Of a stretch of 23,344 nucleotides of DNA, positions 2,963 to 13,581 are shown one piece after another. Positions within the stretch are counted from its first letter, which is position 1. Each line of letters begins with the position of its first letter. The DNA is from a virus. Where the stretch lies: positions 1-23,344 of the IMG/VR virus record IMGVR_UViG_3300010155_000099. The stretch is one strand, 5' to 3'. The translations under genes and the position numbers were made by a program. Under the pieces are notes generated by a model. The model ran no database searches. It was not told the origin of the DNA and saw only the letters and a program-made list of their open reading frames with translations.

Positions 2963-4858
2963 TTAAGAGGGGATCATTCCATTTTGAGAAGCGTTTAACA
3001 CTAGTTCGCCAATTGCTTGTTCTTTATCTTCTTTTCTATATATTTGTTTTAAGCCTTTCATCTTCTTTCTAATGATTTTGTTAATGTAAGCCAGCGCAAA
3101 AGGTAAATCAGAATTGATTGAATGTGTGTGGTCTAATGGACCGGCTACGACTCCCAGAGATGTTCCTGTTCTCCCAACTGGCTGTATAGCCCAATTGATT
3201 ATTTTGTGATCGTGCCACTGCGACTGTGGTCCGACACTGGACATTGCCACTGTGCCATTCCCATATTTATCAACAAAATATTTATGTGTATGGTCGTGAT
3301 TTTTCGTTGTGGTGCCCTTTAATTTAGATTTCCCTGTGTTATCGATAAAATTTAAAGTTGCCAACTCCATTATCTTTTTTAGATGTTTATTATATTCAAA
3401 TAGTTTTAATTTTATATTACTTTCCGCCAATTTGATATCAAAATACATTTTAATCCAAAAGAATTCATTATATAATTTATCATATTCTTGTTCAGATAAC
3501 AACTTTAACTTTATTTCTTTAGTAGTAAACTTTGGTGCTATTCCTGGTTTATTAGAACATAAAATTCTTTTTTTAGTGATCGGGTTTTGTACATAATAGC
3601 TTAGGTACCAAGTATATACAGTTTTTTTAATTTCTTCTATTTCGTCTAAGTATGGAATATCATAGTAAATTTCAAAAAATTTATCAAATTTAAGTACTCT
3701 TGACCGACATACTTTAAAGGTTTCTCCTGTGCATATTGCTGCTCCATTAATATCCCATTCTGGGCTTTTAGCATTATAAAGTTCTTTTGTCTCCGTCAGG
3801 CCGGCCGCGAATGTTTCGTTTGCCACGTCAACTAAAACATCATTAAGTTCTTTTTCCAGTTGTTCTTGGCGTTCGGCGATCTCTGAAGGGCTAGCCGTGG
3901 CTTTTTCTAGGTTAGCTCCTTCATAAGTGCCGTCTACAATGCCTTCCACTGTTGGCCATTCAGGAAATTCTGATTTTATTGCTATTTCTGTTGCCTCTAC
4001 GATGGCGTTTTGTCTTTTTTGTATTATACTTTCTTCATATGCAATTCGCATATATTCGCGCATTTTAAGTGATTTAACATCTGCGACCAACCTCCACGGC
4101 ACATTTCTATCTATCATAAATCCAAACCTTCGTGCAACAATTCTATAAACATTAAAGTTTGGATCAGTAAGAAACTTGTGTTTCTTTTCATCATTATCAT
4201 AAGTTTCTGTATCAATTTCAACACATAAGCCAGTAGCCAATGGTGACGTGGAGTAGGTACTAATTGTGCCACTTTTTGTAAATGGTATCTCTGAGGCGAC
4301 ACCTTTTAAATATGTGAGAAAAAGATTCGTAAAGTCTGAGATGTTTGATATTTTTTCTTTATGTTTCGGCGTTCCGGAAGAGAGGAATTGAGAAACAAAA
4401 ACAAAGTAGTGCATTTTTTTCTGTAGTGCGCTTATTGCCCCAAGATCCGGGACGCCCTTGCTTGCTACAAAATCTGCAATCGGCCCGCCAGAAGAAAGCC
4501 AACTAGCTCGTACCAAAGATTTAATATTTGCTTTTAAATCCTTAAAAGCTGCGGCAACAAAATCAAACACAAGGACTTGGCCTGCGCCATCGTTAAGATT
4601 TGTCATTCTTTTGTAAGTTAACTCCCCGTCGACATGAGCACTTTTGGGTATTATATAATCTCCATTTAAATTAACTTTTCCATACAAAGGATTTTCATTA
4701 ATGAAATCAAAAGGCTTGTCAATCCAAGGCAATTTCCCATCTGGATATACTTTTTCATAATAATATTTTTTCTCATCGTAAAGCTCATTAGAGCTTCCCA
4801 TTGAGTTATTGCCTTTTGGAATTTTTGCAATTTCAAATAACTCGTCCATTGATGCCAT
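2963..4858 (-). CDS. Putative baseplate or tail-tip protein with HxH metal-binding motifs
   Basis: A 631-aa protein that I cannot assign to a named T4 gene. The distinctive part is the C-terminal region: HDHTH at 521-525, a glycine-rich GNG turn near 533, HDH at 549-551 and DHTH at 576-579, seven histidines in under 60 residues. Clustered HxH motifs coordinate iron or another metal along the axis of trimeric phage spikes and fibre tips (known for P2 gpV and T4 gp37), so a metal-stabilised tip or connector is a reasonable reading. A helical, charged segment lies at about 325-345. The ATG follows an AGAAGGAG ribosome site, and the gene sits 43 nt after the hub candidate as the last structural gene before the replication genes. 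Virion location is inferred from position and motif; the exact role is unknown. Confidence 0.55.
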   Translation of the reverse strand: MASMDELFEIAKIPKGNNSMGSSNELYDEKKYYYEKVYPDGKLPWIDKPFDFINENPLYGKVNLNGDYIIPKSAHVDGELTYKRMTNLNDGAGQVLVFDFVAAAFKDLKANIKSLVRASWLSSGGPIADFVASKGVPDLGAISALQKKMHYFVFVSQFLSSGTPKHKEKISNISDFTNLFLTYLKGVASEIPFTKSGTISTYSTSPLATGLCVEIDTETYDNDEKKHKFLTDPNFNVYRIVARRFGFMIDRNVPWRLVADVKSLKMREYMRIAYEESIIQKRQNAIVEATEIAIKSEFPEWPTVEGIVDGTYEGANLEKATASPSEIAERQEQLEKELNDVLVDVANETFAAGLTETKELYNAKSPEWDINGAAICTGETFKVCRSRVLKFDKFFEIYYDIPYLDEIEEIKKTVYTWYLSYYVQNPITKKRILCSNKPGIAPKFTTKEIKLKLLSEQEYDKLYNEFFWIKMYFDIKLAESNIKLKLFEYNKHLKKIMELATLNFIDNTGKSKLKGTTTKNHDHTHKYFVDKYGNGTVAMSSVGPQSQWHDHKIINWAIQPVGRTGTSLGVVAGPLDHTHSINSDLPFALAYINKIIRKKMKGLKQIYRKEDKEQAIGELVLNASQNGMIPS

Positions 4859-12551: not shown

Positions 12552-12731
12552 TTAAGAGGGGGCTTTAGTATTTTTTTGAGCTTGTTCGTAATCTTCTTTT
12601 TCTTTTTCGAATTGTTCCACTAGCCTTGTTATGAACCAATTTCTTAATCCAACTGGTAGATTGTAGGCTTCCATGAAGCTCCACCCGCCATAATATTTTA
12701 ATAAAAAGAACTGCTCATACACAGATTCCAT
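12552..12731 (-). CDS. Small protein, probable downstream part of a tail assembly chaperone
   Basis: A 59-aa frame: it starts MESVYEQFFLLKYYGGWSFM, continues with EAYNLPVGLRNWFITRLVEQ, and ends in a charged tail. The hydrophobic/aromatic pattern followed by R-x-W-F and an E/K-rich helix is like the small protein found after gp26-type genes in T4-like viruses and like the T-part of tail assembly chaperones. ATG lies 4 nt after the stop of the gp26-like gene and has no Shine-Dalgarno sequence. The frame stays open upstream of the ATG into the T7 run at 12750-12756, so it may be made as a frameshift extension, by reinitiation, or both. I am confident that it is a real gene and moderate about its role. 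Confidence 0.75.
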   Translation of the reverse strand: MESVYEQFFLLKYYGGWSFMEAYNLPVGLRNWFITRLVEQFEKEKEDYEQAQKNTKAPS

Positions 12732-12735
12732 ATAT

Positions 12736-13581
12736 TTATCGCTTAGGCCAAAAAAAGTCCGTCGTAAACGGAACCTCCATTTCTGTTTCTGTGAAACAGT
12801 TTTTACATTTAACTTTTTGAGTTAAATCAATATTTGGTACCAAACTCATATATGTGGTCCGAAGATAATGAGAATCTTTTGCCGGCATATTATCTATAAA
12901 AGAAGAAGTTTCTCCAGGGTTGGAGGTACCATTAACAGAAACAACAAATGCCTTCATTTGATCAGTCACTGGGTTCTCTAGTAAATTATATTGTTTCTTT
13001 TTTTCGGCGCTAGCTAAAAGATTTGCTTCGTCCTTGCCATTTAAGAATCGTACTTCAGCTTTGGCTTTAGATGTGGGTAACTCGATGACAAAAGTTCCAT
13101 TTTTAGTTGAGGAGGCCGCGGCGACTTCAGCTGTTTTTGGTTTTGCTTCATTTAAATCAAATGCATGATCATTAACGCTGTTACAATAAAAACATTGAAC
13201 TTTGGTTTCATATGTATTCCCATAAGCAGAAACTCTTGCTGCTACCATTATTGCATTTTTATCTCCAACAAGAATTTCATTGACATCTATATTTTTATTA
13301 ATAATAAGATTTTGAAGCAGTCTTTCGATTGCAATCCCTTTTTGTAATAATGCTCTAGAAGTCAAAATATCTTCATCTTTTGCAGTCATTTGTCTTACTT
13401 CAATATGTTCTTGATTATGCAGAGGATGTTCCTCTGGATAAAATTTGCCCCCAGATGGAAGCTCAACAAAGTCTGTGGGTACGACAAAATTTAATGTGCT
13501 TGAATCACTCGTAGTTTCTGCGAGGGAGATTGGGGAATCTGCCACCTTGGGCGCCCCAAAGCGATCCTCATTATTTCTCAT
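12736..13581 (-). CDS. 26: gp26-like baseplate hub/tail chaperone protein with two CxxC knuckles
   Basis: A 281-aa protein of the T4 gp26-like type. The recognisable core is FVELPSGGKFYPEEHPL at 38-54, then IEVRQMTAKDEDILTSRALL at 60-79 and ILVGDKNAIMVAARVSAYG at 103-121. Two cysteine pairs, C130-FY-C133 and C259-KN-C262, probably form one zinc knuckle across the domain. In T4, gp26 is counted as a baseplate hub factor; its position here between tube and tape measure is that of a tail assembly chaperone. The ATG follows AGAGGTGATAA, one of the best ribosome sites in the window, complementary to the end of 16S rRNA. The last codons contain TTTTTTT (12756-12750), a possible slippery site leading into the 59-codon frame. 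Family call good; chaperone role inferred. Confidence 0.8.
   Translation of the reverse strand: MRNNEDRFGAPKVADSPISLAETTSDSSTLNFVVPTDFVELPSGGKFYPEEHPLHNQEHIEVRQMTAKDEDILTSRALLQKGIAIERLLQNLIINKNIDVNEILVGDKNAIMVAARVSAYGNTYETKVQCFYCNSVNDHAFDLNEAKPKTAEVAAASSTKNGTFVIELPTSKAKAEVRFLNGKDEANLLASAEKKKQYNLLENPVTDQMKAFVVSVNGTSNPGETSSFIDNMPAKDSHYLRTTYMSLVPNIDLTQKVKCKNCFTETEMEVPFTTDFFWPKR
12750..12756 (-). promoter_or_regulatory. Candidate slippery site (T7 run) for +1 or -2 frameshift
   Basis: On the minus strand the gp26-like gene reads GAC TTT TTT TGG CCT AAG CGA TAA. The following 59-codon frame is offset by +1 (equivalently -2). Read in that frame the run continues TTT GGC CTA AGC GAT AAA TAT ATG with no stop. 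Slippage on the seven Ts would append GLSDKY plus the 59-aa protein to residue 277, giving about 342-343 aa. Phage Mu uses a -2 shift at the equivalent chaperone gene; others use -1. Confidence 0.5.

Follow-up and report, generated by a model that had tools for sequence, protein, structure and literature searches.

The gp26-like gene and the 59-codon open reading frame (ORF) behind it in the window (the whole stretch of 23,344 nucleotides of viral DNA analysed here, IMG/VR record IMGVR_UViG_3300010155_000099) are very probably a single tail assembly chaperone gene, read by frameshifting into a short product, TAC-N, and a C-terminally extended one, TAC-NC, as in the G/GT-type tail chaperones. 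In the mechanism we propose, most ribosomes would end at the TAA codon and produce TAC-N, while presumably a minority would slip by +1 on the conserved sequence UUU-YUU-U, where the tRNA in the P site (Phe, or Leu on CUU) would re-pair one base downstream. Reading in the +1 frame would append GLSDKY plus 59 residues, yielding TAC-NC. If the two proteins work as lambda G and GT do, their common part would be the one that binds the tape measure protein and the extension the one that recruits tail tube subunits, and both TAC-N and TAC-NC would be absent from the finished virion. Chaperones expressed by a shift are required for tail building in many phages, and the lineage of the window appears to hold a +1 version whose signal hardly varies across a large group that is mostly uncultured.

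The structural genes of the window lie on the minus strand (Table 1). The gp26-like gene closes in the 0 frame with GAC TTT TTT TGG CCT AAG CGA TAA. The T7 run that the initial annotation had seen near this end is present, but its position needs correction: it lies inside the last codons, as the FF of FFWPKR followed by the stop. As first proposed, the 59-codon frame stands at +1 (= -2, modulo 3) relative to the gp26-like ORF, with an offset of 850 nt; upstream of the gp26-like stop, the +1 frame has no stop codon for 83 nt, a stretch that includes the T7 run (scored on the identical locus L009). The ATG of the small ORF, four bases after that stop, indeed has no Shine-Dalgarno (SD) sequence before it in the window. 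The predicted TAC-NC keeps the 0 frame to FF and then continues with GLSDKY and the 59 residues; at this junction, G278 and L279 are invariant in an alignment with fused relatives. The order of tube gene, chaperone pair and putative tape measure gene is that of G/GT-type tail chaperones and agrees with the placement of the pair between tube and tape measure in the initial annotation, except that a 152-aa gene precedes the tape measure ORF. Two further ORFs of the minus strand were looked at in passing. One of 282 aa (869-1717) begins MNIIGLGQAGCNIAEYF, by eye like an FtsZ/tubulin-like nucleotide-binding start, and has no Pfam or PHROG match; the other, of 396 aa (1719-2909), matches family A DNA polymerase (PF00476, E 1.3e-16) and is short for a complete polymerase.

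Table 1. Features of the chaperone locus and its neighbours, in window coordinates.
Feature	Position	Strand	Remark
gp19-like tube gene	14187-13606		upstream of the pair; PF06841 E 3.6e-5, phrog_4542 E 4.1e-22
gp26-like gene, predicted short chaperone isoform TAC-N	13581-12736	minus	281 aa plus stop
SD-like GGAGGT	12778-12773	minus	possible stimulator; 16 nt upstream of the T run
T7 run	12756-12750	minus	predicted +1 shift site (UUU UUU U)
Invariant 12-nt motif TTTTTTTGGCCT	12745..12756	minus	codes F F W P in the 0 frame, F F G L in the +1 frame
59-codon ORF, ATG to stop	12731-12552	minus	predicted C-terminal extension (T part) of the long isoform
Predicted frameshift product TAC-NC	12552..13581	minus	342 aa; stop at 12554-12552
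152-aa gene	12486-12028		between the chaperone pair and the putative tape measure ORF
843-aa ORF	12008-9477		downstream; putative tape measure by position and length only

The frame relation recurs throughout the relatives of this locus. A tblastn search of phage records gave 26 distant relatives, and further ones came from scans of IMG/VR and of bacterial genome contigs; the 139 +1 loci collected fall into 99 clusters at 80% identity, which share ancestry, and counts of them are not independent observations. In the first set, the IMG/VR loci share 36 to 100% identity with the window and all carry the extension at +1, as do the named phages of that set with the sole exception of a 595-kb jumbo phage (L007), which has it at -1. 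In the second set the extension is at +1 in 79 of 79 scorable loci, and the same holds for all nine listed loci from bacterial genomes. Such a shared offset is far beyond chance. Relatives conserve the 59-codon extension protein at +1 whether or not they have an ATG, and the relation is present in cultured, sequenced phages (Mel-JY01, immuto, SP-15 (locus L008) and those of loci L004, L005 and L006). The +1 lineage includes phages of Flavobacterium and Microcystis, and more distant +1 relatives infect Bacillus, Streptomyces and Streptococcus. One of the nine bacterial-genome loci, a close relative of the window pair (L180; CP070664.1, 2762506-2771258), sits in a 2.8-Mb chromosome assigned to candidate division WOR-3 and is either a prophage or phage sequence binned into a MAG.

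The putative shift site is strongly conserved, with third codon positions fixed in the motif TTTYTTTNNCCT common to 93 of the 99 clusters. Loss of the T run in relatives had been named as a sign against a shift, and it is not what we found: TTTYTTT is kept in the same 93 clusters. Nor does any of the scored relatives have a stop between run and ATG, the overlap being open in all of them. In the set without the genome-contig loci, 123 of 129 had TTTYTTT followed by GG, AC or TC and then CCT. Every canonical cluster uses TTT for the first Phe (93/93; usage elsewhere in these genes 0.82), the Leu variant of the site is always CTT (0.20 of Leu codons), and the Pro codon is CCT in 93/93, although CCT makes up 38% of Pro codons in the rest of the genes. 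Read in the +1 frame, the invariant T of CCT is position two of a Leu codon, and it is located upstream of the ATG; the +1 frame is therefore under selection ahead of any possible start. A run of T7 or longer is present in 82 of the 93 canonical clusters, the remaining eleven having TTTCTTT. Six sites are non-canonical (L049, L001, L004, L005, L006 and L008), and all of them permit +1 re-pairing.

Upstream of the site, 75 of the 93 clusters have an SD-like 7-mer of -7 kcal/mol or lower, compared with 5.8% of control windows from the same genes; the spacers cluster at 15, 23-24 and 26 nt, and the element lies mostly 15-27 nt upstream of the +1 site. Compared with synonymous-codon shuffles, SD-like strength in the region -42 to -12 was -10.5 against -6.4 kcal/mol, and other parts of the genes had no excess over such shuffles, in tests that were chosen after the sequences had been seen, with codon usage pooled and clusters related to one another. 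For these reasons, we treat the upstream element as a lead towards a possible stimulator. The RF2 +1 site has its Shine-Dalgarno sequence 3 nt upstream, whereas the SD-like element of the window lineage lies about 15-27 nt away. The -1 cyanophages P-SSM2 and S-PM2 have a GGAGGG some 9 nt ahead of their slippery heptamer, a spacing of the kind known from dnaX. Downstream RNA structure was not seen as a general stimulator in the 75 nt after the site (mean z -0.64 over 40 loci), z falling below -2 in seven of the 40.

The direction of the shift deserves separate consideration, as the canonical site is compatible with +1 and its U7 form with -2 as well. A frame change that is real but runs backwards, the P-site tRNA moving back two bases on U7 with the gain of one extra Phe, is unlikely but is the alternative that we take most seriously. 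On U7 the -2 re-pairing would be perfect, and the SD-like spacing of 15-27 nt is longer than known for +1; a stretched duplex would be expected to pull backwards, and perhaps the SD-anti-SD duplex far upstream supplies that pull. The non-canonical sites speak for the other direction. When codon re-pairing was judged by hand at L049 (TTC TTT TGG), L001 (TTT CTA TTC), L004 (TTC TTT CGT) and L005 (CTG TTT CAG), it was perfect at +1 (UUU to UUU or UUC) and poor at -2. Because these sites re-pair well at +1 and poorly at -2, +1 is the preferred direction, and we infer it for the U7 form too.

Whether the small frame needs a shift at all can be judged from its start codons. As an ordinary separate gene, it would be translated by termination at the gp26-like stop and re-initiation at the ATG four bases further on. 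Genes within operons of this kind are often coupled, and an ATG lies close to the stop (between -12 and +30 nt) in the window and in other clusters, 22 of 99 in all. Yet the protein is still kept although 55 of the 99 clusters lack an ATG across the whole interval from -180 to +51 and 21 lack start codons altogether. A near start codon preceded by a Shine-Dalgarno sequence, the independent ribosome site that had been suggested as a counter-sign, was clear in none and present in some form in a single cluster (1/99). Moreover, the +1 frame shows conservation ahead of the ATG, where CCT is invariant (93/93 clusters), and the synonymous sites of the T run are fixed. Translation of the small frame as an ordinary separate gene is thus very improbable; coupled re-initiation at the ATG of the window could yield a free 59-aa protein as well. 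The conserved site and the scarcity of start codons support a programmed frameshift in a chaperone-type pair, as the initial annotation had supposed.

Slippage could also occur during transcription. RNA polymerase stuttering on T7 would give mixed mRNAs, some of them one base shorter, which would then be read normally. Homopolymer runs can slip, and 82 of the 93 canonical clusters have T7 or longer, but seven Ts are short for RNA polymerase slippage, TTTCTTT breaks the run in eleven canonical clusters with no change in the frame relation, and the relation is equally unchanged at L001, L004 and L005, whose sites have no long run. We consider this explanation as improbable as re-initiation. It is next to inconceivable that the extension has decayed to a remnant or that the frame break comes from an assembly error: metagenomic contigs can bear indel errors at homopolymers, but the relation recurs in cultured phages and the extension is conserved.

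The protein encoded by the gp26-like gene belongs to PF12322 (T4_baseplate / gp26 family), with E 6.1e-14 and 52.7 bits against a cut-off of 24.5, its residues 40-278 aligning with profile positions 8-219; it also matches phrog_150 (baseplate hub) at E 2.4e-18. A sequence search against the PDB returned nothing useful. Its structure model (pLDDT 88) has as best PDB match the HK97 tail assembly chaperone (2ob9; Z 5.3, 90 aligned, rmsd 5.8) and as second YqbN (3klu; Z 5.2, 79 aligned, rmsd 3.2), both Z scores being modest (<8), followed by a third match of Z 3.7. We take YqbN to be an XkdN-type chaperone, the 3klu entry giving the protein name only. Zinc-binding proteins are among the lower PDB matches, in agreement with the CxxC pairs of the protein, and matches to viral structures include the SP-15 hub protein and a "baseplate hub assembly chaperone". 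PF12322 is matched by T4 gp26 and also by T4 gp51, which has 48 additional residues that align by eye with the 59-aa frame. In profile comparisons, the +1 extension matched the -1 extension (prob 96.7, E 4.6e-10) and the -1 extension matched the gp51 C-terminus (prob 91.6, E 8e-7), the direct comparison of the +1 extension with the gp51 C-terminus reaching a prob of only 5.4. By this transitive route through the -1 group, the 59-aa extension is judged homologous to about residues 202-249 of T4 gp51. In P-SSM2, the 57-aa gp51 aligns with the end of phrog_150 (E 3.5e-7). For a T4-type gp51 model, PDB matches did not exceed Z 4.8. A match of the 59-aa protein to DUF6760 (PF20546) reached E 0.062 only; this family was absent from the records searched and named in no paper found, and a link through it to contractile injection systems was not established.

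T4 gp51 is a gp26-type domain with the extension fused in frame. The idea that a shift in this pair would tie T4-like hub factors to the chaperone system thus holds, gp51 combining the gp26-type domain with the same C-terminal part. This link is not new: according to papers that cite it, Vladimirov, Gautam & Davidson 2022 (Virology 566:9-15) identified the tail assembly chaperones of T4-like phages, some made by frameshift and those of T4 by duplication. These citing papers state that in some T4-like phages a short gene is accompanied by a long, fused one, and that poly-T is known to act as a -1 signal in genes of T4-like phages.

Among our sequences, the extension is at -1 after U UUU UUY in the cyanophages P-SSM2 and S-PM2, the pelagiphage HTVC008M (no ATG near the junction), phiM12 and KVP40, and it is also at -1 in Atu_ph07, PA5oct and L007, some of these being jumbo phages. 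The window and all scored IMG/VR relatives are at +1, so they are not of the -1 type on U UUU UUY. Salmonella phage Vi01 has its extension at -1 with a non-canonical slippery site, GAA ATT TTC ATT TAA. Campylobacter phage CP220 (L211, L212) has two separate PF12322 genes: a short one, and another that ends in a fused T-like part. It is the second example of a two-gene form resembling that of T4. In-frame joining of the two parts at the site was not seen outside the T4-type and Campylobacter two-gene forms. Genes named 'gp51' in P-SSM2 (L204:6495-7390) and in L192, L206 and L205 (cyanophage, pelagiphage, KVP40) encode the extension alone; their missing N part would be gp26, joined at -1 after U UUU UUY. 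Cyanophage gp51 has been an oddity since 2010, with only about 20% of the length of T4 gp51 (PMC3037559); it would be short because the gene covers the extension only, gp26 supplying the N part by the -1 shift.

In a tree of the common domain, whose long deep branches call for care in reading, the four labels need 7 changes (least possible 3). The window falls into a single clade of 27 +1 rows (100/99), and T4 gp26 is placed with the gp51 clade (99/80), a grouping that a duplication in the T4 line would predict. On balance, we lean towards the view that a widespread group of contractile-tailed phages uses a distinct +1 signal for its tail chaperone, TTTYTTTNNCCT with a remote SD-like element 15-27 nt upstream, and that the direction of the shift at this one site has changed among +1, -1 and in-frame fusion as a single gene family evolved. 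A single site decoded at +1, at -1, or bypassed by duplication would offer a natural series for testing how the direction of a shift is chosen. There is also a practical consequence, as annotation misses the long form: the extension is omitted, called hypothetical, or truncated at a false ATG.

A functional parallel is lambda G/GT, where short and frameshift-extended proteins are likewise encoded between the tail tube and tape measure genes; lambda shifts by -1 at another site, and the window lineage by a predicted +1. Xu, Hendrix and Duda reportedly described a conserved tail-gene frameshift in 2004. P-site slips are known on CUU U in RF2 (prfB) and on UUU C in influenza PA-X. The window site lacks both the A-site stop codon of RF2 and its Shine-Dalgarno sequence 3 nt upstream. 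The predicted shift site of L004, UUU CGU C, is the same string as the influenza PA-X +1 site. L004 is Streptococcus phage vB_SagM-GXN1, and its site lies in the last gp26-like codons before a stop at 3727-3729. A two-gene chaperone is also known from Bacillus phage 0305phi8-36 (PMC2147016), in which short and long forms share a domain and come from two genes without a frameshift; in the window a frameshift is predicted. Atkins et al. 2016 (PMC5009743) describe the G-T frameshift as a conserved feature of long-tailed phages other than T4, and the tail chaperone of halovirus HSTV-2 as likely made by a +1 shift. HSTV-2 is a myovirus, and like the window it has a chaperone gene with a probable +1 shift; no PF12322 match was found in the HSTV-2 genome, and its +1 shift apparently belongs to another gene family. 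The open-access text searched contained no +1 signal of the present kind for the gp26 family, and the +1 signal and its wide distribution are likely the new part of this work. The window locus and the T4-like chaperones belong to the same PF12322 family and have the same short and long isoforms, and in the T4-like cyanophages, the pelagiphage and KVP40 the extension is added by a frame change at the same place. Where T4 has two genes, and the cyanophages and KVP40 shift by -1 on U UUU UUY, the lineage of the window would shift by +1 on UUU YUU U.
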